Shown: positions 19,546 to 61,156 of the stretch, piece after piece
Position numbering within the stretch: the stretch's first letter is position 1
Layout: each line of letters starts with the position of its first letter
Assembly: GCA_039545315.1 (NCBI GenBank)
Contig: BCIM01000002.1
Location: 2,332,331-2,396,330, forward strand
Direction of reading: 5' to 3'
Source of the DNA: Kondoa malvinella
Taxonomy: Eukaryota > Basidiomycota > Agaricostilbomycetes > Agaricostilbales > Kondoaceae
DNA length: 64,000 bases
Position numbers and translations under genes: made by a program
The notes under the pieces: model-generated
What the model was told of the DNA's origin: nothing
The model's input: only the letters and a program-made list of their open reading frames with translations
The model's database searches: none

Positions 19546-19612
19546 TTCATCAGACCGCCGGTAAACAGCGTGTCGAAAGAGAGGCATGCAAGTCAGACTA
19601 GTCCAGCTGCAG
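19546..19612 (+). pseudogene. Orphan 3' tail of RRG7
   Basis: Reads HQTAGKQRVEREACKSD then a stop, matching the C-terminus of the intact RRG7 gene at 47.0-47.6 kb except P to S. No upstream RRG7 sequence is present: the DNA before 19546 differs and leads into CMR1. This is a duplication or rearrangement scar; the intact gene marks copy 2 as the likely source. Confidence 0.7.
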
Positions 19613-19852
19613 ATTCAGACACTTTCTGGCCCGTCTATCTGCAATCAGATCGATGCTGGATGTTGATATGTACGCTCATATGCATAATAACCTTGCAATT
19701 CAGTCTCAACAGGATACTCGGCAGTACAATTACAATCCCTATATCATCCTGCAGACCTTGCCCATGGCGCCCGTCGCTCCAGCTAGCCAAAGCTGAAGAC
19801 CGGTAAAAAATAGTGATCTAAGATGATATAGATCAGTAAAGCCTCGACAGAC
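19546..19852 (+). repeat. Inverted repeat arm 1 (307 bases)
   Basis: This segment recurs in reverse complement at 46759-47065. By eye only two bases differ (S/P codon change near 19610 and a C/T near 19630). Its first ~65 bases reproduce the last codons and stop of RRG7 (frame HQTAGKQRVEREACK), so here an RRG7 tail is stranded next to CMR1. The other end stops exactly at the gap mark n at 19853, beyond which the pheromone gene lies. Both copies end on the same base (...GCCTCGACAGAC), which points to a longer repeat that the assembler could not resolve. Confidence 0.9.
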
Positions 19853-19853
19853 N
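19853..19853. other. Assembly gap mark (single n)
   Basis: One unknown base, probably a scaffold join of unknown size. With the n at 20170 it isolates a 316-base contig that carries the pheromone coding sequence. Confidence 0.8.
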
Positions 19854-19880
19854 TCAGCAGGGCAAGAGCTCACAAGAAGA

Positions 19881-20117
19881 TCAGGCAATCACGCAGCCAT
19901 GGACGAGGAAACCTGGAGGGTTTGGGACGCCGGTCATGTCGCGGGAGACGGTGCAGCCGTGGACGAGGAAACCTGGAGGGTTTGGAACGCCAGTCATGTC
20001 GCGAGAGACGGTGCAGCCGTGGACGAGGAAACCTGGAGGGTTTGGAACGCCAGTCATGTCGCGCGATTCGATGGTCTCTTCGACGGGAGCAGAGGTGGTG
20101 TTGTAAGCGGCAGGCAT
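19881..20117 (-). CDS. Lipopeptide mating pheromone precursor with three tandem repeats
   Basis: A 78-residue intronless frame. ATG at 20117 lies in a good context (CAACCCATCATG) downstream of a TATA box. A short leader (MPAAYNTTSAPVEETIES) is followed by three 20-residue units, each RDMTGVPNPPGFLVHGC plus a tripeptide: TVS, TVS and finally VIA with the stop. The end CVIA is a canonical CAAX farnesylation box, and the inner cysteines sit in CTVS, CAAX-like. This plan, several peptide copies each ending in Cys plus an aliphatic-type triplet, is that of rhodotorucine A precursors of Rhodosporidium toruloides, where units end in CTVA/CTVS (from memory). The product would be a farnesylated peptide sensed by a STE3 receptor. 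The mature N-terminus cannot be read. Not recognised as any named gene; the peptide sequence is unfamiliar. Confidence 0.9.
   Translation of the reverse strand: MPAAYNTTSAPVEETIESRDMTGVPNPPGFLVHGCTVSRDMTGVPNPPGFLVHGCTVSRDMTGVPNPPGFLVHGCVIA
19893..20063 (-). repeat. Three 60-base tandem repeats within the pheromone gene
   Basis: Unit starts (plus strand) at 19893, 19953 and 20013. Units 2 and 3 are nearly identical. Unit 1 differs at third codon positions (GGC/GTC versus GTT, TCC versus TCT) and at the last triplet (VIA instead of TVS). The period is a multiple of three, so a mirror frame is also open on the plus strand. Confidence 0.95.
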
Positions 20118-20169
20118 GATGGGTTGGAAAATTGGTTGAGTGAAGGAGTGGATTGGTGAGTGCTTGTAC

Positions 20170-20170: not shown

Positions 20171-20217
20171 AGACTGTGGATGAAGAGAAGAGAGGGGAAG
20201 AGAAGGATTAAGGGGAA

Positions 20218-20380
20218 GCTTTATATGCGGATTGGTCGAACAAAAGAGGCATGACAAAAAGCCGAATAAAAGGCCCCTAAAAAGACCATATCAGCAAATA
20301 AGCACAAAGGCTGACTGCAGGACAATGGCGTTCGGAAGAAACAAAAGAACATCTCCATAAAGTGAAGGAGACAAAAGGCC
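20218..20380 (-). promoter_or_regulatory. Pheromone gene promoter: TATA, CCAAT and repeated ACAAAAG motifs
   Basis: Read on minus, CCAAT (20235-20231) is followed by TATAAAGC (20225-20218) and a pyrimidine-rich leader, about 100 bases before the ATG. Upstream are repeated ACAAA(A)GG-type boxes: 20240 (ACAAAAGAGG), 20254 (ACAAAAAGCC), 20304 (ACAAAGGCTG) and 20371 (ACAAAAGGCC). The ACAAAAGGC box recurs twice before STE3. These resemble the ACAAAGGGA pheromone response element bound by the HMG factor Prf1 in Ustilago; the role here is inferred. Confidence 0.55.
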
Positions 20381-20839
20381 GTGTTCGCGTCATCGTAGCG
20401 CGGTGAGGTGTTTCTCAAGTTGGTGATGCTTGTCAGCTAGATGGACACTTCATGACGCAATAGTAAATCTAGTCTGCGAGGTGATTGGCTCGGAAAAGAA
20501 GCTGCCAGTTGGGAATGTATACATGATTGCGGCGGCAAGGCTAAGCCGTTAATTCTTGAGCGAGCAGCTTGCCTTTGCTCTAGCTTTGTGCCAGCTTGAA
20601 AGCTCTCTGCTGTACTCCTGCGGAGCCTTTGTCCCGCGCGACAACTAAACGCAACGCTAGTATCGACCTGCATCATCTGTCCACTTTGACACCATGTCCA
20701 TAGCCAGTGTTACGATGTACGGTCTGGCGAGAGCCAGTGGCTAGTGCCGGGCGGTTCAGCATTGCTGATAATCCAAGTACACATTGAAACCTACTTGGCT
20801 ATACAAACTCGGGCACCCCGGCAATGCTAACACGACATC
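20381..20839. other. Intergenic between pheromone promoter and STE12 end
   Basis: About 460 bases with no convincing gene on either strand. It could hold distal pheromone promoter elements and the STE12 3' UTR. Confidence 0.4.
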
Positions 20840-22633
20840 CTAGCCATCGGCAGACTCTTCACCTTGGTGTGATCGTCCACCTGGTTGGGGCAAATCGGTA
20901 GATCTTAGCGATGCATGAAAGGGTGAAGGAATGATATTGGCACCCGGATCTGCCGTGAAAGAGGAAACAGCAGCGGACGTGTCGGCCAGCGACTGTGCAT
21001 ACATGTGATGCCGACTGATGGCTGGCGTAGCAGATCGATATCGTCGACTGTCTTGGTCTACCGCCCGTTGTTCAGGTAATCCGACTGACATGCCACGTTG
21101 AGATTGCTGGTAGCTGATAAGCTGTGGCGGTGGTGGCAGTGTAGCGAGCGCTGGGACAGGCGAGCCGCTGGTCAACCGAGACCTATCTGCGCTGCAGTAG
21201 TATGGCATTGGCGAGGCCCAAATGTTGGCGGAAGAGAGATCTAGGTTGGGAAACCGAGACTGATAACGTGCGTCCTCTTCCATATTTCGAGGATATAGAT
21301 CCGCTCGCAGGAAGGGCAGAGATGCGTTGCCTTGGCCCGTCATTTGAGCCGTAAGAGGCAGATGGTAAAATTGCCCTGAATGAGGTGTTGTAAAATGTTG
21401 CGTGCTGTGTCGATTATCATCGTATCCGGAGAGATGAGCTGAAATATTTCGGAATGGGACAGAAGGGCGCTCATAGCTGGTAGAGGATTGGTATAGTTGA
21501 TTTGTAGCATCCGACGCGGGCAAGCACCTTCCATCTTCCTGCGTCTCGAGGCCGGGCGACATGCTCTCCGACATAGCTCGTTCCGCTGAAGTATGTCTCC
21601 GTACACGGTTTCCCACAGTTTTGCGGCGTTGTTTGTAGGCCGGACTTCCTTCGAAAAGGGTAAGGGCTCCGAATACCGGGTTGCCTTGCTGTCCTCCAGA
21701 ACCAGCTACTCCGTCAATCGACCTGTTCGTTTCTTCTTCTGATCTGTGACGCTTTCGTGTCGTCGAAGTCGCGGTTTCTCGAAGGTGCATAAGGTTTGAA
21801 GAGTCTAGCGAGGAATTTCCGTTGGTCAGACTGGCAGTCGAATACGAGAGACAGTCGGGAGTGCTTTTAGTCTGGGCAAATTGCTCGTATAAGCTCTTTC
21901 CAGGGTTGTAGACGAATGAGGTCGCGGGCTCGCTGATTGCATGCGTAGTAGGCTCCATGCCCAGCTTCTCGCGTTTGAGATCTCGATCGAGAGCGTCGAG
22001 AAACAGTCGATCGTGCGGTACCGAGAACCAATAGAACACCTTTTGTTTCTTCTGGGTGCGGATGGCGTTATACTTGAACAGCAATTCTAGGAAGTCACTC
22101 TAAGATAATCTTTGTCAGCTACATTGTCTTTTCAGATGCCAAGCATTGTACCTTTGGATCTTCGAGAGTAGCGTCCGTGCCACTTTTTAAATTCCTCAAA
22201 TCGCTGAAAATGCCTTCTTCGAATTTCTTCATGTGCTGTACAGGGCGACCAAATGCCATGAAGCGAAAGCATAGCGCTCGAACGATATCCGTGCCGGCTA
22301 TGAGGGATTTTTAGATCTCCTCCGGGTCGGGTTGTTTCTCTCACTGATGTGGTAAAGCCCGTTCCAAAGCACGCAACTGACCAGGTCCCCGTTTGGCAGA
22401 GCGAACCTGTTGAAGCACCTTTCTTCCTTCGCTGCCCCTGGTTGCTCTAGGGCATTTTGGTCGAACGAGCCTGGTGCGGTGGCAAGGAAGAATTTGAGCT
22501 TGTCTACGGCATTCAATAAATCATTGGTGCTTGTTGAATTGACCTGCGAGCGTTGTTCGGTATGTACTGGTGGTGGAGAGGCGATGGGACGCACTTCTCC
22601 GCCTGGAGGGTGATAAGACGCAAACTCAGACAT
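20840..22633 (-). CDS. STE12: STE12 mating transcription factor
   Basis: Start at 22633 (MSEFASYHPPGGEVRPIASP). The conserved STE DNA-binding domain covers three exons: LKFFLATAPGSFDQ, FNRFALPNGDLVSCVLWNGL, then after an intron GTDIVRALCFRFMAFGRPV, HMKKFEEGIFSDLRNLKSG, LEDPK, intron, and FLELLFKYNAIRTQKKQKV followed by FYWFSVPHDRLFLDALDRDL. The rest (about 350 residues) is Ser/Gln/Pro-rich and disordered. Ste12 acts at the end of the pheromone MAPK cascade and activates mating and filamentation genes. No C2H2 zinc finger is visible in the C-terminal part, though these occur in many filamentous-fungal and Cryptococcus Ste12 proteins. It lies 0.7 kb from the pheromone gene. Confidence 0.95.
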
Positions 22634-30082: not shown

Positions 30083-30123
30083 TGAGCAATGCAAGGGTTT
30101 TGGCAGAAGCTGTTCAACACTTG

Positions 30124-30809
30124 CCTATTTCTTCTTGACTTCTTTGCGCCTGATAGTTTCGGATCCCACAAAGATGCCCTGCCGCATTAGCATCAGAGTT
30201 TAGCTGGTTGGCCGGGCAAGAGAAAATCGAGCCTACTTTGCCATTGTACGGTTCCGGTTTGCGATAACTCCTGATGTCACTAGCAAATTGCCCCAGCGCT
30301 TGCTTGTCAATTCCGCGTACCACAATTTCGGTCTGACTCTTGAGGACACATTCGACACCGTCTGGTACCTTTTTGAGTATAGGCAGAGGAAACCCAAGCT
30401 TCAGGTTGAGAATCCCGCCCGCATCCAAAGAAGCCCGATAACCCACTCCCTTGAGAGAGATGAGCAGCTCGTGACCCGCCGAGACGCCAGTCACTGCATT
30501 GAACAACAGCGTGCGTGTAAGACCCCAGTGTTCCCTCTGGAACTTCAATTGCGGCTTGTCGACTTGAACAATAATCTCCTCGCTACTCTCGCTTGTCTTC
30601 GAGCTTCTGAGAGAAACAAAGGCTGGCACAGACAGCTGAATCTTGCCCTTTGGACCGGTAACGACGGTCGCCTGTTGTTGCACCGTCGGACGGCTGACGA
30701 TATTCACTTCTGGCGGAAGAGAGATGCTGGCGCTGCCGATGTGCGAATGTCGGCGGCAGACAGTCGCGCTTCCTCTCCAGGATAAGTACAGATATGGTTT
30801 GCACAGCAT
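30124..30809 (-). CDS. MRPL6: Mitochondrial ribosomal protein uL6m
   Basis: Two exons. The start at 30809 gives a presequence-like N-terminus (MLCKPYLYLSWRGSATVCRR). The body contains VTGPKGKIQLSVPAFV, LTRTLLFNAVTGVSAGHE, LISLKGVGYRASLDAG and LNLKLGFPLPI. After a 3' intron the end is YNGKGIFVGSETIRRKEVKK. The GPKG, GVSxG and KG(V/I)GYR blocks and the KPEPYxGKGI/R end identify uL6, here in its mitochondrial form. An L6 ribosomal gene is among those I recall from red-yeast MAT regions. Confidence 0.9.
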
Positions 30810-31353
30810 CTGCGTCTTAGGTTGCAGCCTGAAGACAAGCGACGACGAGTCAGTGAACTTTGATTACATCAGCGAGATTTTGCATAATCTCTGGGTCTTT
30901 GTATGCCGGTGTATCCTTAGCACGGAAAACTTGCAGAAGCTGCCTAGCCCCGCTCAGGGGCGAGCGCAGGAGGATTCGCAGCGACTAAAAGGCACCCGGA
31001 AAACAAATCTGCAGGTCATTTCATGATTTCATGGCTCGAACAAAGGATTGCTGCTGTTCATCTTCTGCCGCAGAATATCATCTGCACATGGCAAGCTTTT
31101 GAGCTGAGCTTATTGCCGACAGTCAAGGACTCGGATGTCAACTTTACGAAAATCAATACCCTGCAGGTCATTGTCAGCATTTGCATTGTACGACGGCACT
31201 GCTAAGGAGCGCTGGCGATCTCGCATGGCTGTGTTCATTCCCAAAGCCAACACACGCCGGATGAATGAACAAAAGGCAGAGTGCTTTTGTTTGCCAGACA
31301 AAAGGCCCACCTGCTTCAGGATGCAATAGCTCTTGATTCTTGTCTTGTCAAAG
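30810..31353 (+). promoter_or_regulatory. STE3 upstream region with two ACAAAAGGC boxes
   Basis: A 544-base divergent region between uL6m and STE3. The 9-mer ACAAAAGGC occurs at 31269 and 31298, 85 and 56 bases before the STE3 ATG, and once in the pheromone promoter at 20371 (10 bases ACAAAAGGCC shared with 31298). ACAAAGGAT at 31038 is a weaker variant. It resembles basidiomycete pheromone response elements; function is inferred. No gene seen here. Confidence 0.5.
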
Positions 31354-32832: not shown

Positions 32833-34147
32833 CTATGAGTATCTGTTGGTCAACTTTTCCGCTAGCTCCCGACACCGACGTGACTTTTCGCGCAACCTTT
32901 CAAAGGCTGCCAATGGAAGATTAAAGGGAGCATGCTGTCCAGCAGATTCAACGGTGACTGGGCGGTCGCCAAGCTAGCATCAATATTACAGTCTGTCAGA
33001 CAAAGAATACTTACAGATGAAGTGGTCTCTCTTGCGACCTAAGCGTACTTTGTTGGCGAAGTGAGGGTATCTTAGTACCTCGCGACTGACAGTATCGAGT
33101 CTCGGATTGACAATGTGCGCTGTAGCAAGTCCATCTTTATGCCGGACCTCAACAACGCCTGGTGGGAAACATGCTGCAAAGGCAGAGCAGTCAGCCGGGT
33201 CGATTGGTTGAAGGATTTCTATCGCTGGGAGGAGCCTGTAGGATGCTGTGGCTGCATCAATTTGGTGAGCCAGGCTGAAGAGAAGGCAACGAAAAGCTGT
33301 GCGCACCTACAGGTGACCATTTCGCATGAGTTTTGCCAATGCCCTTTTCACAATGCATCTCGCAGACCACCTCTTGTCCGGGGCGAAGCTTTGCGAGAAG
33401 GATATCTGTATGCACAGGCGCTGGAGTGGGATGTAAACGGGTGCTCTGATTCCCCTGAGGAACAAAAGAGATGTCGCCAGAGTATAAAGCAGGTTTTGTG
33501 AAGAGCTTGTCTGGATCCGTTTCGTGAGGAGGCACGCCGTGGATGCGTTCGCAGTTTGCTGATAGTTTGAAGACTACAGTATTCGTATCGTTTGGCGCCG
33601 AATCCTTGCCCGCTACCGGAGCACTGTCGAGTTAAGATTTGCGTGATCGTGATGTCAGAGACTCACGGAGACGAAAATCCAGTTGATTTGGATCACATGC
33701 AATTGGCACAAGTCCGAGACGCTGAGCCAGCACCTCATCTTGAACCAAGGAAGTGTTGATCCATACATAGACATGCTCGATAGCGATAGTAGGAATCTAA
33801 AGCCAGCTAGCGGTTAGCTTATGTACGTTCAACGGTGACTCGAACAAGCAGCAAGCGCACCTCTGACATCAAGATGCGCCGGAGGGCATTGGCGATAGAC
33901 GCGTCAACGCCAATCAGGTCGAATTCGATATTGCGTTCAGACAATCGGATGACATCCACAGTCAATGCTCTGGCAAAAGCTGAGAGTTCCCATGGCAGAC
34001 TCTCTTGATCTGCGGCCGCCGCTGGTTCGGTAATCTGCGCAAACAGATGTATTTGAGCAAATGTACGTCAACCGAGATATGACAGCCTTTGTGACGGACA
34101 TTGCCAATTTTCTCTGCGCCCAAGCTGACGTGTGTAGAAGAGTTCAT
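32833..34147 (-). CDS. RPC40: RPC40 (AC40), shared subunit of RNA polymerases I and III
   Basis: Start at 34147 (MNSSTHVSLGAEKIGNVRHK). The next exon has LTVDVIRLSERNIEFDLIGV and DASIANALRRIL-type sequence, the alpha-like dimerisation motif. Later blocks are YVWINTS-like in 33.7 kb, GVPPHETDPDKLFTKPALYS, LRPGQEVVCEMHCEKGIGKT, TASYRLLPAIEILQPI, CFPPGVVEV and DTVSREVLRYPHF...RDHFI. The last exon appears to be VTVESAGQHAPFNLPLAAFE ending near 32833. Its phase does not fit the only visible donor (GTAAGT at about 33014) and acceptor, so the 3' end is either mis-sequenced or spliced in a way I did not resolve. Confidence 0.85.
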
Positions 34148-45567: not shown

Positions 45568-45878
45568 CTATTTTTCTGAAAGAAGCGAGATCAGGAATGC
45601 GACCAAGAAGCATACGGCTGCGCCAGCACAGCAGATGAGGAAGCCGAGAAAGCGTTCCCAGCGGGAGAGAGCGAATATCTACAGAACGGCAATTCTGTCT
45701 CAGCGGTGCAAGTAGACACAGAAAAGACAGCTGTACGCATCTTCCTCGTCGCTTCTAGTCGAAGATCTGACGGGGATGTATGCAGCCAAGGACGAAGGAA
45801 GCCAGGCATCTTGCGTCACTGGCTGAGAGTCAACGGTGTCGGCTGTGCTGGCGTTCAAGCCTGGTCTGAACCAACTGT
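45568..45878 (-). pseudogene. Truncated SFT2-like vesicle transport gene
   Basis: Minus-strand exons read WFRPGLNASTADTVDSQPVT, SLAAYIPVRSSTRSDEEDAY and, after an intron ending in TTCTGTAG, FALSRWERFLGFLICCAGAA plus VCFLVAFLISLLSEK then a stop at 45568. This closely follows the N-terminal third of fungal Sft2 (Golgi tetraspanning membrane protein), up to TM1. The conserved remainder (RKFAL..., TM2-TM4) is absent downstream on this strand, and no donor GT precedes the stop. The 5' end runs into the N gap. Either a broken gene at a rearrangement point or an assembly error. Confidence 0.6.
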
Positions 45879-46758
45879 NNNNNNNNNNNNNNNNNNNNNN
45901 NNNNNNNNNNNNNNNNNNNNNNNNNNNNNNNNNNNNNNNNNNNNNNNNNNNNNNNNNNNNNNNNNNNNNNNNNNNNNNNNNNNNNNNNNNNNNNNNNNNN
46001 NNNNNNNNNNNNNNNNNNNNNNNNNNNNNNNNNNNNNNNNNNNNNNNNNNNNNNNNNNNNNNNNNNNNNNNNNNNNNNNNNNNNNNNNNNNNNNNNNNNN
46101 NNNNNNNNNNNNNNNNNNNNNNNNNNNNNNNNNNNNNNNNNNNNNNNNNNNNNNNNNNNNNNNNNNNNNNNNNNNNNNNNNNNNNNNNNNNNNNNNNNNN
46201 NNNNNNNNNNNNNNNNNNNNNNNNNNNNNNNNNNNNNNNNNNNNNNNNNNNNNNNNNNNNNNNNNNNNNNNNNNNNNNNNNNNNNNNNNNNNNNNNNNNN
46301 NNNNNNNNNNNNNNNNNNNNNNNNNNNNNNNNNNNNNNNNNNNNNNNNNNNNNNNNNNNNNNNNNNNNNNNNNNNNNNNNNNNNNNNNNNNNNNNNNNNN
46401 NNNNNNNNNNNNNNNNNNNNNNNNNNNNNNNNNNNNNNNNNNNNNNNNNNNNNNNNNNNNNNNNNNNNNNNNNNNNNNNNNNNNNNNNNNNNNNNNNNNN
46501 NNNNNNNNNNNNNNNNNNNNNNNNNNNNNNNNNNNNNNNNNNNNNNNNNNNNNNNNNNNNNNNNNNNNNNNNNNNNNNNNNNNNNNNNNNNNNNNNNNNN
46601 NNNNNNNNNNNNNNNNNNNNNNNNNNNNNNNNNNNNNNNNNNNNNNNNNNNNNNNNNNNNNNNNNNNNNNNNNNNNNNNNNNNNNNNNNNNNNNNNNNNN
46701 NNNNNNNNNNNNNNNNNNNNNNNNNNNNNNNNNNNNNNNNNNNNNNNNNNNNNNNNNN
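45879..46758. other. Assembly gap, 880 N
   Basis: Unknown sequence. It lies directly next to inverted repeat arm 2 at the same base where arm 1 meets the contig carrying the pheromone gene. A second pheromone gene (plus strand) is the likeliest content on one side, and the 5' end of SFT2 on the other. Confidence 0.95.
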
Positions 46759-47065
46759 GTCTGTCGAGGCTTTACTGATCTATATCATCTTAGATCACTA
46801 TTTTTTACCGGTCTTCAGCTTTGGCTAGCTGGAGCGACGGGCGCCATGGGCAAGGTCTGCAGGATGATATAGGGATTGTAATTGTACTGCCGAGTATCCT
46901 GTTGAGACTGAATTGCAAGGTTATTATGCATATGAGCGTACATATCAACATCCAGCATCGATCTGATTGCAGATAGACGGGCCAGAAAATGTCTGAATCT
47001 GCAGCTGGACTAGTCTGGCTTGCATGCCTCTCTTTCGACACGCTGTTTACCGGCGGTCTGATGAA
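46759..47065 (-). repeat. Inverted repeat arm 2 (307 bases)
   Basis: Reverse complement of 19546-19852 with two visible differences. It covers the last codons of RRG7 (47065-47010) and its 3' flank, and ends at the N gap. RRG7 is complete here, so this is probably the original copy. Confidence 0.9.
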
Positions 47066-47639: not shown

Positions 47640-47802
47640 TTAGCAGGCAAACAATTGTGCGGCCAAGCTTCTTGCGACGAGAATATTGAGCCTTCGGTGT
47701 TGTGTTTAGCTTAGCTTGAGGCAGGCGATTGCGGCTGCATCGAAGTTCCCACTCTTCTTTCCTGTAAACGATCGGTGGTATTGAAGAAAAGCTGTTGTCG
47801 TC

Positions 47803-48923
47803 ATGCGGCCATTGACGGTTCGCTTGCAAGGCAAATTCAAGCAGAAGACGTGGCCGAAAGCACATTGCCTCAATCAGCGCTCTGTCTCCAGTGTAACAGC
47901 TCGTAAAGTATCTGTCGACAACGCAGATTTGGTGCGATCTTCGGATCATGACGCTTTCTTGCTTTCCTTCTTCTATCCGCCTCAGCTCCGTGACGCCTAT
48001 CTTGCTGTACGAGCTTTTGACCTCGAGCTGCGCCGTATTCCAGAATCGGTCAGCAGCCAGTCGACCGGGTTGATGCGTTATGCTTGGTGGAAACAATCTC
48101 TGGATCAACTCTTCAAGGTGCGTCTGCAAAGCATGTGTAGGATTAGCCCCCGCTCTGACAAGCAGGTGTCCTCTTAATCATAGGGCGGCACTGCGCCAAA
48201 TCATCCCGTTCTAAAAGCTATCGGGAGAAATGTTGGCGTCTTTGCAAAGAGCAGGCATCATCTAGATCGCTATTTGGAACAGCAGGTCAGCTCATTCGCA
48301 GATATACGACTAGTGTCTGCTGAAGGGTGGCTGTTAGTCCACAGCATTCACGCAGCAGAGCGCTAGACGAAAGCCGACGCTTTCCGACTTGGCAGCGCAC
48401 TCTCTTGACACCGACCTGCAGTTGCTCTCTGCCCAATCCAAGCTATTGGTAGAAACGCGCCAAGTCCCTGGCGCTAGCCTCAAGAGTCTCAGCCGAGCTC
48501 AAAGTCTTGTACAACTCTTACGCCGTTCGCCGAATACGCTTTCACGCCGTCGACTAGATTATCCAGCAGATGTGCTTGAAGAACAAGGCATTGTAAACGA
48601 TCAGCTTTACCAGTCTACGACTGAGGGCCAGGCAGCGCGAAGTAAAGCAGCTCGCAGTATCGCCCAGATCGCCCTATCCGACCTTCAAGGTGCTGCTGCA
48701 GATTTGAAGAGCGTGAAAAGCTTGCGCCCTCTGTATTTGTCCAAGGCAGGCAGCAGTCACGGATCAGCGCGCGATTCCTGGCTGATTGCTCTGTTTGTCT
48801 CGTATTCAGATTGCGCATGAACGTTGGCTGGCTCGACTGTCAAAGCAAAAGTATGATGTGTTGTCTCCTAATCTCATGCGGAGGGACTGGCAGCTGCCTC
48901 TCCGGCTTTGGTGGTCATCGTAG
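47803..48923 (+). CDS. NDUFAF6-like complex I assembly factor (phytoene synthase fold)
   Basis: Start at 47803 with a basic presequence (MRPLTVRLQGKFKQKTWPKA). Then LVRSSDHDAFLLSFFYPPQL, RDAYLAVRAFDLELRRIPES and TGLMRYAWWKQSLDQLFK, spliced to GGTAPNHPVLKAIGRNVGVF. Later exons have SLSRAQSLVQLLRRSPNTLS, RRRLDYPADVLEEQGIVNDQ and, at the end, AHERWLARLSKQKYDVLSPN plus RRDWQLPLRLWW. The blocks and spacing match NDUFAF6/Sicily, a non-catalytic squalene/phytoene synthase homologue needed for complex I assembly. A true carotenoid phytoene synthase is less likely: the DxxxD motifs are not evident. Middle exons were not fully resolved. Confidence 0.85.
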
Positions 48924-51401: not shown

Positions 51402-51533
51402 AAATGCCAAAAATTACTTTGATGCCTCTTGAACCCATCCACGACTCAAAGCCTGCCACTTGCGTGTACTGCTTTCTGCACGTCTCCTTGCTCGCGTTCC
51501 TACAACCACTACTGCAGCCAAGGCTCTTTGCTC

Positions 51534-54500
51534 ATGTCGCAGCAATCCGTGTCGGACCTTTTGGCCGCGTCTCTGTCGCCAGACGATAATGTGCGCCAAT
51601 CAGCGACTCAGCAGCTTGAGCAGCTTGCTTCTTCGTCATTCTCCGCCTATGTTCAAGCTTTGATTGAACAACTCGCGAATGAGGGCGGATCGCCTTCCCA
51701 TATTCGCAATGCCGCGGGTCTTGCCCTCAAAAATACTTTGGCGGCACGAGAAACAAGTACCAAAGAACAGTACGCTCAAAGGTGGACGTCTTTGGATTCT
51801 GCTACTCGCGACCAGGTCAAGGGAGGTGCCATGGCCGCATTGTCAAGCTCAGACAGAGGCGCCCGCAACGTTACCGGTCAGGTCATTGCAGCCATTGCCG
51901 CCATTGAACTCCCCGCAGGCCTCTGGCCCGATCTGGTCAACCAGCTGCTTGCGTTTGTTGGCAGATCAGACAATGCTGGACTGCGGCAAGCTACTTTGCA
52001 AACTATCGGATACATCTGTGAACAAATTGTAAGCCGCTATTCATGAGATAGTGTCGGTATTGGACTGATGCCGAATGGTTGATTATGTTCAGCGCCCCGA
52101 GGTGCTGGTGGCTCAATCGAACCAGATCTTGACCGCTGTCATACAAGGCGCCCGGCAAGAGGAACCAAGTACGGATGTGCAGCACGCTGCCATAGTCGCT
52201 CTGTTAAACTCTCTCGAATTCATCCGAGACAATTTTGAGCGAGAGGTCTGTCTTCGCTTCTATGCTTGATCATTGCCTAGAATACGCCTGATGCTCTGCG
52301 CACCGACTGACAGGGCGAACGCAATTACATTATGCAGGTCGTATGCGAAGCAACCCAGTCGTCTTCGTCCGATGTACAAGTGGCCGCATTCGAGTGCCTG
52401 GTCAAGATCATGCAGCTTTTCTACGACAAGATGCAATACTACATGGAGAAGGCGCTCTTTGGCGTGAGCTTCGTATCGTGCCCGCGCAGGGAAGGATTGA
52501 CCTGACTTCTTCTAGCTGACCATCATGGGAATGAAACACGAGGACGAAAGGGTAGCTTTGCAAGCTGTCGAGTTCTGGTCCACCGTTTGCGACGAAGAAA
52601 TCGAACTCGCGCTGCAGGCAGAAGAGGCTGCAGCGTACGAAGAAGCCTCGGAATCAGAGTCTCAGCATTTCGCGCGCATTGCATTGCCCGAGGTGCTCCC
52701 TGTCGTGCTCTCCCTCTTGATGCGTCAAGAAGAGGATGCAACCGAAGACGAATGGAATGTCAGCATGGCCGCAGGCACGTGTTTAGCCTTGCTAGCTCAA
52801 GCTGTTGGCGATGGCATTGTTACGCCAATCATTCCATTTGTCGAAAGTCACATCAAGAGTACAGAGTGGAGGCAAAGGGAAGCAGCCGTCATGGCGTTTG
52901 GCTCGATCTTGGATGGACCAGAAGAGAAACTGCTCCTCCCGCTAGTTTCCCAGGCACTTCCTACAATCATCGACATGATGCAAGACTCGCACGTTCAAGT
53001 CAAGGATAGCACGGCCTGGACACTCGGTCGCATCTGCGATGTTCTGATTCAAACAATCAATCCGGACGTACATCTGCCAAGCCTGGTTACCGCTTTGGTA
53101 CAAGGCTTGCAGGACAATCCAAGGGTAGTCAGCAATTGCTGCTGGGGCTTGATGAATTTGGCGGAACAATTGGGCAACTCTTCGGCCGACTCTTGTGCCT
53201 TGAGTCCTTTCTTCGATGGGGTGTCTGAAGCTCTTTTGCGCTTTGCGGGACAGTGAGTTTTATAAAAGCGGGACTATAGATACCATTGATTCTGAAAACG
53301 TATCAGGAGCACAAACGAAGCGAATTCTAGAACGTCTGGCTATGAAGCTCTGTCCGCATTTATATCTCACGCTCCCAATGACTGCCTGCCAACCGTCAAT
53401 AAACTTGTCTCGGCGGTCATGCAAAGATCAGAACAGATGCTTCAGATGCAGACCCAGATCGTCGGTGCGGATGATCGAAACAACTACAATGAAATTCAGA
53501 TGAATATCTGCAGCGTCCTAACAGTCAGTCGTATCCTGAGTCCTTAGAAGTTGCAATCACTCACCGTCTGTGCAGAGTATTGTGCGCCGTTTGGGCAAGA
53601 CGATTCTTCCTCTTTCCGACCAGATGATGTCGCTCCTGTTACAAATCATCCAAACCGCTCCGAAACAATCGCCAGTCTTGGAAGATGCGTTCTTGTGTGT
53701 CGGCGCCATGATTTCAAGTCAGCACTAGCATGACCACGTGCTTGATTTCATGCTTATGCTTCTGTTGCAGCGCTGGAGGCCAATTTTACGCCATACCTAC
53801 AAGCCTTCCTACCTTGCTTGAGCAACGCTCTCCAGTCACATCAAGATTACCAACTATGTTCAATTGCAGTCGGGCTGATAGGTGACATCTGCCGTGCGCT
53901 TGGAGAAGGCAGTCTGCCATACTGTCAGGGATTCATGGAGGTTCTTCTCAACAACCTCCAGAGCAGTGTACTACACCGCAACGTCAAGCCGCCGATTCTC
54001 AGCTGCTTTGGTGATATTGCTCTTGCAATTGGAGGAAGCTTTGAGCCTTTCCTTGTGACCGCCATCAGTGTGCTGCAACAGGCCGGCGCCATGCGAGCCG
54101 ATGCGGTATGTGTTTTCTGGCCAACAGCGCTTACTGGACTCAAGGTTGTGACAGACGGACTACGATATGGTCGACTACATCATTTCCTTGCGTGAGAGCA
54201 TCCTGGAGGCGTACACAGGCATTGTCACAGGCATGAAAAGTAGCGGCAAGAGTAGGTCACGTCTTAGTTACTCTGTTGCACTCCAACTCACCCTCGTATC
54301 CTTTCAGGTCAACTCTTGCTGCCCTATGTGACTCCCATCTTCACCTTCCTACAATTGGCCTTGACAGACCAAGAGCGAACCGAAGGTATCATCAAATCAT
54401 CTGTTGGGCTGTTGGGAGATCTTGCCGAAGCATTCCCCGGGGGTCAGATCAAGCCTCACCTGCAGACCGAATGGGTAGTCGAGGCCGTGAAGGCCGCGCG

Positions 54501-58014: not shown

Positions 58015-58197
58015 TGTTGTGGATAGTGGTCGCTTGCTTCCGAGCGATGTGAGCAATTGAAGGCTTCCGGTTTACCGGCTCGCAGAGAAAATTCCGGTTT
58101 TGAATGTGACATTGCCCCCAAAATCCTTAATACAAGTCTGTGAATAATACATGATCCTGGAGCACCGCTTGCAGTCTACCCTGACGCTTTACCTTCC

Positions 58198-60869
58198 CTA
58201 TCGTCCTGATCCTTTCGGTTTGAGCAAAGGTGCCAACCTCGACAGATCGCAGGCCAGCTGCAGAAAGCCGTGCTAAGAAGCAGTGATGAGCTTCTACGAG
58301 TACTGTATCGTTTGTACAGGGATCTCTCACCTGCAATAGCTCATCGGCCGCAGCTCTTGATTCTGCAAACCGCGTCAGCTGCCCGCAGCACTTCGCCCGC
58401 GGTGACAAATACGTACTGACGTCAACACACAGACAGACAGCCAGGAAATTCTTCAATTCTTTGCTCAGTCGTTCAGGTTTTTTAAGTGTGGGTGTTCCAT
58501 TTGTTGCAATGAGGTACAGCGCTTTCAACGGCTCTTCGTCGAGGTAAGGAGGTTCGTTTTCGATCATCTCGATTGCCATGACTGGCGGAAACAAGAAGGA
58601 ATGGAATTCAGTGTGATTGAGCGAAAAATATAGAAAGGACACACTCCCTAAGGACCAGATGTCCACCTTGGCACCATACTCCTTTTGCTTGACTACTTCA
58701 GGCGCCATCCAATAGGGTGTGCCGACCATGGTCGCTCGTTTCGACTTCTGGTCAGTTAGTTTGGCACAAAAGCCGAAATCGGCTGTTTGCACAAGCAGAC
58801 AAGCTTGCTTTAGCGTTTTCAAACGGTCGGACAACACGTATACGTACTAATCTTGACATGACCCCTTGCATCCAAAAGGACATTGTCACTCTTGATATCG
58901 CGATGGATAATACTTTTCGAGTGCAGATGTTGCAAACCTTGGCATGTCTATCAAAAGATCAATCAACCGATTTCACTAAACAATTCACAATACACTCACC
59001 TCCCGGCAGATGCAAGAGATCTGGTCCTCTTCGAGAGAATGATTGTCAATAACGTCTGTTAAAGCGCCGCCTTCCATATAATCCATGACCACCCACAGCT
59101 CGCTGCCCCGCAGCAAGAAGGAATCACGGAAGTTGACTATATTGTCATGCCGGCTCTCCTTCATGACCAAGATCTCATTGACGATGAGTTCCTTCCGTGG
59201 TTGTGCTGCCAGGTCCATTTGCTTGATTGCCACTTTCTCACCCGTTTCGTTGATTTTGGCGACATACACAGATCCAGACGCTCCTTGACCGACTTTCTTG
59301 ATCTTGGTGTACATTCTTGTGGGGTCCTCTGGTGAAGTGACCTGCCGCAACTTGGCTTGAATCTCGGCTTCTGTCATTTTTGATATTCGTCTGTCTCCGC
59401 CTCCGGGTTTCTGGGCACCTACGGCCTTTTTATTGTCAGCTCCGCCTGTAGCTGCAGATTTGATCAAAGAGGCTGATGCCGCAGCGACATCGCCTTTGAC
59501 ATTGGGCGCTGGTGTGCGCTGACCATTACTTGGGCGCGCGTCGTAGGGCTGAGACGAATGAGATGATTGTCCTAGGCCTGTTCGCTGATCGAGTGTTGTA
59601 TCTGCCGCTGTTCGCGCTGACGTGCTTGACTGCAATGGCTTCGCGCTGGTGATCACCTCGTTTGGGATTCGTGAAGTGCTCGGGGCTGCCGGTGCTTTGC
59701 GTTGCGGTACCAAGTCAGAGCGTTCGGAGAGTGAGCCTGGAGTCCGGGCTGGGGCAAGTCGAGAGGCCAAGGTGGTTCGCTCTTGTTGGCTGGCCGTAGA
59801 GGGCAAGGCACGGCGAAGGTCATCCGTGTTGGCCATAGCGCCACTGGCTGATCCGTTTACTTTTATATTACCTTCAGAGCGAGCGATGGAATCTTTGGAG
59901 GGTAGCGTGACTGGCGGCAGTGGTTTTTGTTGAGACCTGTCGGACTGTTTCAAACCGGCAAGGCCAGTCCCCGCATCAAAGCGTGTGACATAGGGTTGCG
60001 ATGCCATGTTCTCCTTGATCGCCATTGTTTCTGTGTCTCGCTCCCTTTTCTGAGACTCGGTGTAAAACTCCAAGACGTCAAGGACTGCTTGAGGATTCTT
60101 TGCGTAGTCTTCTTTGGTGATAGCACTGGAGGTCAACAAGCGCGTCCACTGATCAGGCAAGCCAGTGAAAGCTCCCGAAACCGAGTCGAAGCCAACATGG
60201 ACTTGATGCACAAAATTGGTCGGATTCGAGACGCCCACCAATTGAGATCTGCTGTACAAGTCCTCCATCCAGTTGTACAGTTCTTCGTCGTTCTTCACGG
60301 ACTGGGATGTCTCCTTGAGACCCGAGACACGTTTTGTCTATGCGCGGTCAGAAGCTTACCAGATAATAACTTTTCTCGGTCGTCTCCAGCACGAAAGAGT
60401 AAGGCTTCAGGTCGTTTCGGGAGACGTTGGTGATTGAGTCCACGTTGATCAAAACGAGCACAGCGGGGGTGACCTAGCATGAGAAGCACGCCTTTAAAGC
60501 GCCGAAATGCCAACGATGGGGTCGACAAACATCGTTCTTATGCATGCTCAGAGCTCGCTCCCGCAACACCAGCCATCTTTTAGACCAAATCCAGCTCTTC
60601 AGGCCCTCTTCTTTGACACTCACATAACCTCTGCGAACAATCGTCGCTGGATCTGTAGGACCAGAGGACTTTCCTAGACTACGCGAGGCTTGTGGTATAG
60701 GTGTCGTAGCTCCATAGCTCGGCGTAGAAGGTTCTCCTCCAGTTTGACGTCCCAAGCTCGCGTTCGATGCATTGAAGTACGAATTTGAGCCAGACGCGGC
60801 AGAGCTGGCTGATGCAGAGCGCGACATGGGCGCAGGCGGCGCAGGCCGTGACGGCGTCAAGTAGTTCAT
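58198..60869 (-). CDS. STE20: PAK-family kinase, STE20/CLA4 type (PH + CRIB + kinase)
   Basis: Start at 60869 ([20 protein letters not shown]). PH domain from about residue 80 ([35 protein letters not shown]; later [16 protein letters not shown] and [13 protein letters not shown]). [36 protein letters not shown]. After a long Ser/Pro linker the kinase domain begins [14 protein letters not shown], with VAIKQMDL (Lys), [25 protein letters not shown] (DFG), [16 protein letters not shown] and VDIWSLGIMAIEM. It ends [20 protein letters not shown], using an acceptor CTTCTTAG. Bound to Cdc42/Rac it drives MAPK signalling in mating and polarity. PH makes it CLA4-like by yeast rules; basidiomycete MAT-linked STE20 kinases are its natural comparison. 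Confidence 0.93.
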
Positions 60870-61156
60870 CCTCTTTGGTTGTCCTTTTGGTCGCTGGTCG
60901 ACTAGCAAACACCGCGTCAACGAGTAATACATTGTCACTAGAACCTACAATTCAGCTAATTGCACAAGCGAAGACGATATGCTGCTCTGAGCCTGTCCGA
61001 GCTTGGAATACACTGGCCATCTACCGGTCGCAATAGTCTCAATCTCGCTCTTCTCCGCTTGAAGGGCTTTCTTGATGACAAGCACACAATCCATCTAAGG
61101 CACAAAGTCGTGTCGCTTCATAATACACCCAGGGCCTGGAGCCGCCGGTGCTAAAC
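60870..61156. promoter_or_regulatory. Divergent promoter between the PAK kinase and MSH1
   Basis: 287 bases between two divergent starts. No TATA or pheromone-type ACAAAAGG element was noticed. Confidence 0.4.

Follow-up and report, generated by a model that had tools for sequence, protein, structure and literature searches.

Within a 64,000-nucleotide stretch of the Kondoa malvinella genome (on contig BCIM01000002.1; this stretch is hereafter the window), the short minus-strand gene at 19881-20117, called copy A here, is very probably a basidiomycete mating pheromone precursor gene. It would lie at a pheromone/receptor (P/R) locus, share the multi-unit design of the rhodotorucine A precursors and belong to a small gene family. 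The case is carried by its internal repeats and its neighbourhood, a CAAX-like end alone proving little. The multi-unit design is already known from red yeasts, whereas the peptide core is without a known match in the searches made.

Coding frame, repeat units and homology

The original prediction had described a 78-codon frame with three 20-residue units ending in TVS, TVS and VIA-stop, and both translation and Tandem Repeats Finder bore this out. The product of copy A (window 19881-20117, minus strand) has 78 residues followed by a stop, MPAAYNTTSAPVEETIESRDMTGVPNPPGFLVHGCTVSRDMTGVPNPPGFLVHGCTVSRDMTGVPNPPGFLVHGCVIA, and is laid out as a 19-residue leader with a terminal arginine and three DMTGVPNPPGFLVHGC units. 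The 20-residue units are identical in SRDMTGVPNPPGFLVHGC, each containing MTGVPNPPGFLVHGC, and end in CTVS(R), CTVS(R) and CVIA-stop. Tandem Repeats Finder, with a score threshold of 50, placed an array at 19893-20063 (period 60, 2.8 copies, 96% matches), the sole array listed in the window. Within the 54-base core common to the units, four columns varied through at least five changes, every one of them at a third position and silent. About 25% of random changes in this core are expected to be silent, and simple arithmetic from this value gives a naive probability near 0.001 for five silent changes in a row. The promoter boxes and the good start context that had been claimed were found as well: CCAAT and TATAAA occupy minus-strand positions 20235 to 20220, some 100 bp before the ATG of copy A, which has an A at position -3.

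On the opposite strand two frames (19899-20159 and 19936-20106) are open, and either might be the real gene. The second of them is nearly unchanged between units, and the silent changes described above fit it too, a point that belongs with the objections gathered below. Frame 19899-20159, however, showed amino-acid changes between units, and its part within 19881-20117, the plus-strand sequence covered by the Pfam scan, gave no above-cut-off match. Moreover, the CAAX end, lying in a locus that also holds STE3, belongs to the minus-strand frame. The plus-strand frames were judged unlikely since promoter boxes, ATG context and CAAX end are all on the minus strand, and we leave them hardly any probability.

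A CAAX-like end is by itself common by chance, since a scan of the window for open reading frames (ORFs) that are 25-200 residues long and close with a loosely defined CAAX pattern returned six, of which only copy A showed internal repeats. Paired CAAX-like motifs within about 30 residues gave six rows in the window, two at copy A and four unrelated to it.

Farnesyltransferase normally acts on a C-terminal CAAX, and the VIA ending is confined to the last unit of copy A. Both points speak for an arrangement in which prenylation is limited to the C-terminal CVIA and a precursor supplies a single active pheromone, its upstream units being relics or spacer. We regard this as an unlikely alternative, though a more serious one than the plus-strand frames, and favour a precursor with three productive units.

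The peptide core had been called unfamiliar, and this holds as far as the limited databases reach: nothing matched above cut-off in the protein, NCBIfam and Pfam searches made. One protein search gave no candidate homologue of the precursor, in a database that may hold few fungal proteins. NCBIfam, built for bacteria and archaea, returned no family, and in Pfam only sub-cut-off matches were obtained, the best being DUF3403 with 19.1 bits against a cut-off of 28.9.

Mating-type locus and probable gene family

The inference of a rhodotorucine-like precursor gained support from a STE3 receptor gene 11 kb away, an adjacent STE12-like gene, neighbours like those of red yeasts and further gene copies (coordinates in Table 1). 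The STE3 splice model covers positions 2-292 of the 292 in profile PF02076. The STE12-like gene adjoins copy A on its upstream side and shares its strand; of the 109 positions in the STE profile, its exons match 25-78, 75-109 and, in a match that falls short of the curated cut-off, 3-27. Two traits of a basidiomycete CAAX pheromone gene are present at copy A, namely a short ORF ending in CAAX and linkage to a STE3-type receptor in the mating-type (MAT) locus. Judged from sequence matches, the context formed by STE3, STE12, ribosomal protein L6, an RNA polymerase subunit, importin-beta and a PAK-family kinase strongly supports a mating pheromone. The kinase is called STE20-like here by its domains and place, and the locus may be read as Pucciniomycotina-like. 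When a PAL exon was compared with solved structures, the Rhodosporidium toruloides entries 1y2m and 1t6j came out on top, a ranking that does not decide the taxonomy.

Table 1. Positions in the window of the pheromone gene, its repeats and promoter motifs, and neighbouring genes
Feature	Coordinates	Strand	Basis or remark
Pheromone precursor gene copy A, complete	19881..20117	-	translated frame and tandem repeats
Pheromone gene promoter boxes, CCAAT and TATAAA (CCAATCCGCATATAAA)	20220..20235	-	some 100 bp before the ATG
Three ACAAAAG motifs, pheromone promoter (20240, 20341, 20371)	20240..20379		last within AGACAAAAGGCC
Three ACAAAAG motifs, STE3 promoter (31269, 31284 reversed, 31298)	31269..31306		both strands counted
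Inverted repeat arm 1, downstream of copy A	19546..19852		recurs inverted as arm 2
Inverted repeat arm 2, abuts N run	46759..47065		305/307 identical to arm 1
880-N run, inferred place of copy B (plus strand)	45879..46758		assembly gap or withheld
Left flank of the 880-N run	45591..45878		99% identity over 289 bp to L022 2675-2963
STE3 pheromone receptor, 6 exons, 380 aa	31354..32758	+	splice model; PF02076 E 2.5e-72
STE12-like transcription factor	20840..22633	-	three exons match STE profile; start placed by eye
Ribosomal protein L6, one side of STE3	30114..30863	-	PF00347
RNA polymerase Rpb3/RpoA-type subunit, other side of STE3	33260..34067	-	PF01000 and PF01193 exons
Importin beta-1 (KAP95-like)	51423..54192	+	IBN_N and IMB1 exons
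PAK-family kinase	58127..60932	-	PBD and kinase exons; PH match below cut-off

Further copies came to light when the genome (19.09 Mb in 20 contigs) was searched with 19546-20169. The search returned copy A, the inverted arm and a third place 3.7 kb past the window end, C2:2399999-2400129 (copy C). There the readable part opens directly after a 705-base N run (C2:2399294-2399998; L022 2964-3668) with TGGCTGCGTGATTGCCTGA, that is GCVIA and a stop, and the stretch including its downstream sequence is 128/131 identical to the copy A region. The sequences flanking the two N runs on the left are 99% identical across 289 bp. Since both the copy C end and arm 2 abut N runs with matching left flanks, there would be at least two pheromone genes, probably three, near-identical and spread over about 48 kb of the locus. 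The simplest reading would place copy B inside the 880-N run. The arms (305/307) and the 3' end of copy C suggest a multi-copy, inverted-repeat character, though only N is readable for the bodies of the other copies.

Both N runs (window 45879-46758; L022 2964-3668) start and stop inside repeats of the pheromone unit. The left flank of copy C overlaps a SFT2-like gene (PF04178, L022 2273-2900), and the 289-bp duplicate beside the 880-N run suggests that this gene and the flank may have been copied together; the window fragment at 45591-45878 matched no Pfam family. A squalene/phytoene-synthase-like exon lies at 47785-48174, near the inverted repeat arm.

As another explanation, the pheromone gene could be unexpressed or in decay and the fungus could have ceased to mate. 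Nothing shows expression, and the two further copies are interrupted by N in the assembly. Against this, the frame of copy A is intact with silent-only changes between its units, STE3 looks intact and promoter elements are present, and we consider decay very unlikely.

STE3-type matches were found in three places of the genome, one of them inside the window. The two further STE3-like genes, at C1:381458-382150 and C1:818376-818723, lie outside the P/R locus and might sense the same or other pheromones. Near them, in four stretches totalling 39.6 kb, the loose CAAX scan returned three repeat-free ORFs, of 43 aa (ending CALS), 59 aa (CGAC) and 29 aa (CLAL); this is roughly what chance would give, to judge from the six in the 64-kb window. 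The 29-aa CLAL ORF (L010 9226-9315) is situated about 160 bp upstream of the receptor gene at C1:818. A homeodomain (HD) gene lies on another contig at C1:1216305 (L012); the opposite strand carries a long frame next to the match, and this is probably the HD locus with divergent HD1/HD2. Because the homeodomain gene is on a contig other than that of the P/R locus, the mating-type layout looks tetrapolar, though the contigs may be parts of one chromosome.

A candidate promoter element

The pheromone and STE3 promoters have AGACAAAAGGCC in common. Three ACAAAAG motifs occur in each of the two (400 bp each, both strands) but three in none of 58,885 other 400-bp segments of the window. These segments overlap, so that they are not independent of one another, and they leave out both loci as well as the inverted arm. 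The longer form ACAAAAGGC occurs three times in the window, always within these two promoters, against a mean of 0.54 in shuffled sequence, where 2 of 100 shuffles reached three. In the whole genome, a scan for the paired form of the motif returned three places including the STE3 promoter, and one for the reversed control. The other places with paired ACAAAAGGC and ACAAAAG, L013 (C1:1578250) and L014 (C2:894330), are possible further targets of the same regulator. The motif presumably resembles the smut element ACAAAGGGA, the exact form of which was not found in the window. On these counts the shared motif may be taken as a candidate response element.

Random pairs of 400-bp segments set the scale for such sharing: 70% have some 9-mer in common and 27% some 10-mer. 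At seven loci near the HD gene and the two STE3-like genes outside the window, ACAAAAG showed single, scattered occurrences.

A wider proposal can be built on these data: a new pheromone lineage with the core GVPNPPGFLVHGC, in which about three near-identical multi-unit genes are kept alike by gene conversion between inverted repeats, lie next to STE12 and are co-regulated with STE3 via ACAAAAGG. We advance it tentatively, and taken as a whole it is more likely wrong than right. If true, ligand, receptor and master regulator would form one module.

Weighing the evidence and relation to known pheromones

Several observations weigh against our interpretation of copy A and its surroundings. Single Ns at 19853 and 20170 bracket copy A, whose sequence may for this reason represent a collapsed consensus. 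Of the other pheromone copies, neither body nor promoter is visible, because the precursor and the promoter each gave one readable place in the genome: a protein search with the precursor returned copy A only, and a search with promoter 20171-20839 returned only itself. No homologue was found in the one protein search made. Loose CAAX ends are common by chance, as seen from the six ORFs in the window and the three in 39.6 kb elsewhere. The promoter motif was spotted by eye before testing, a 9-mer with at least three occurrences is common to 1.5% of random segment pairs, and ACAAAAGG was absent from all seven loci (7/7) near the HD gene and the other pair of STE3-like genes. Finally, L6 and the polymerase gene lie on opposite sides of STE3 here and, in the passages of PMC3236058 used for comparison, on the same flank in red yeasts. 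RibL18ae and LSm7 are not among the genes identified in the window, although no search was made for them.

In gene content, the locus does agree with the P/R locus of red yeasts as given in these passages (STE3, RibL6, RNAPOL, KAP95 and STE20), while gene order differs in part. There, STE3 has RibL6 and RNAPOL to one side and either RibL18ae or LSm7 to the other. That RNAPOL is a Rpb3-type subunit is our own reading and is not stated in the passages. The same source names RHA1, RHA2 and RHA3 in Sporobolomyces sp. IAM 13481, reports that RHA2 was amplified from primers placed in its neighbours STE20 and KAP95, and describes the MAT A1 pheromone genes of S. salmonicolor and R. toruloides as lying in inverted repeats and likely kept alike by gene conversion. 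The tandem peptide units with CAAX-like spacers (CTVS twice here) are shared between Kondoa and the rhodotorucine A precursors (RHA genes) of Rhodosporidium toruloides and other Sporidiobolales, and the several gene copies and inverted repeats described for the latter are probably shared too. Unlike RHA2, placed there between STE20 and KAP95, the complete copy here adjoins STE12, a name with no occurrence in the main text of PMC3236058.

Short precursors with a terminal CAAX, predicted to be farnesylated and located near STE3, are also described for the Tremellomycetes (Phaffia MFA1/MFA2, Cryptococcus MF), as is STE20 near one STE3; in the relevant parts of that paper each precursor yields one mature pheromone, with no mention of tandem units, versus the three units here (PMC5103461). 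The hybrid-type HPP1 of Trichoderma reesei, in the parts of PMC3068285 that describe it, likewise has three CAAX-like motifs, one of them C-terminal. It differs in being an ascomycete protein with the repeated motif (L/I)GC(T/S)VM and Kex2 sites, encoded elsewhere in the genome (PMC3068285).

In the mechanism that we infer, copy A would be transcribed and its 78-residue precursor probably farnesylated at the C-terminal CVIA, with the inner CTVS serving as CAAX-like spacers. Cleavage after each arginine (SR|D) would set the N-terminus of the peptides; a basic residue is also present in the rhodotorucine spacer. Removal of TVS or VIA would leave a farnesylated, methylated cysteine, and one precursor could in this way yield three peptides such as DMTGVPNPPGFLVHGC, ending VHGC, each unit being prenylated. 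Their core is unlike that of rhodotorucine A, YPEISWTRNGC. The predicted monoisotopic mass of DMTGVPNPPGFLVHGC with farnesyl and methyl ester is 1857.952 ([M+2H]2+ 929.983), that of a 15-residue form 1742.925. Prenylation genes exist in the genome, since prenyltransferase-beta matches were obtained on three contigs together with one ICMT match, the farnesyltransferase not being singled out among them. As cognate receptor one would expect the opposite mating type's STE3, a gene that need not be present in this genome.

All in all, our analysis predicts the mass of a candidate pheromone peptide and maps the P/R mating-type locus. With two of the probable three copies broken by N runs, genes of this kind may easily go unnoticed in assemblies. 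The data bear on the evolution of multi-unit lipopeptide pheromones and of their gene families.
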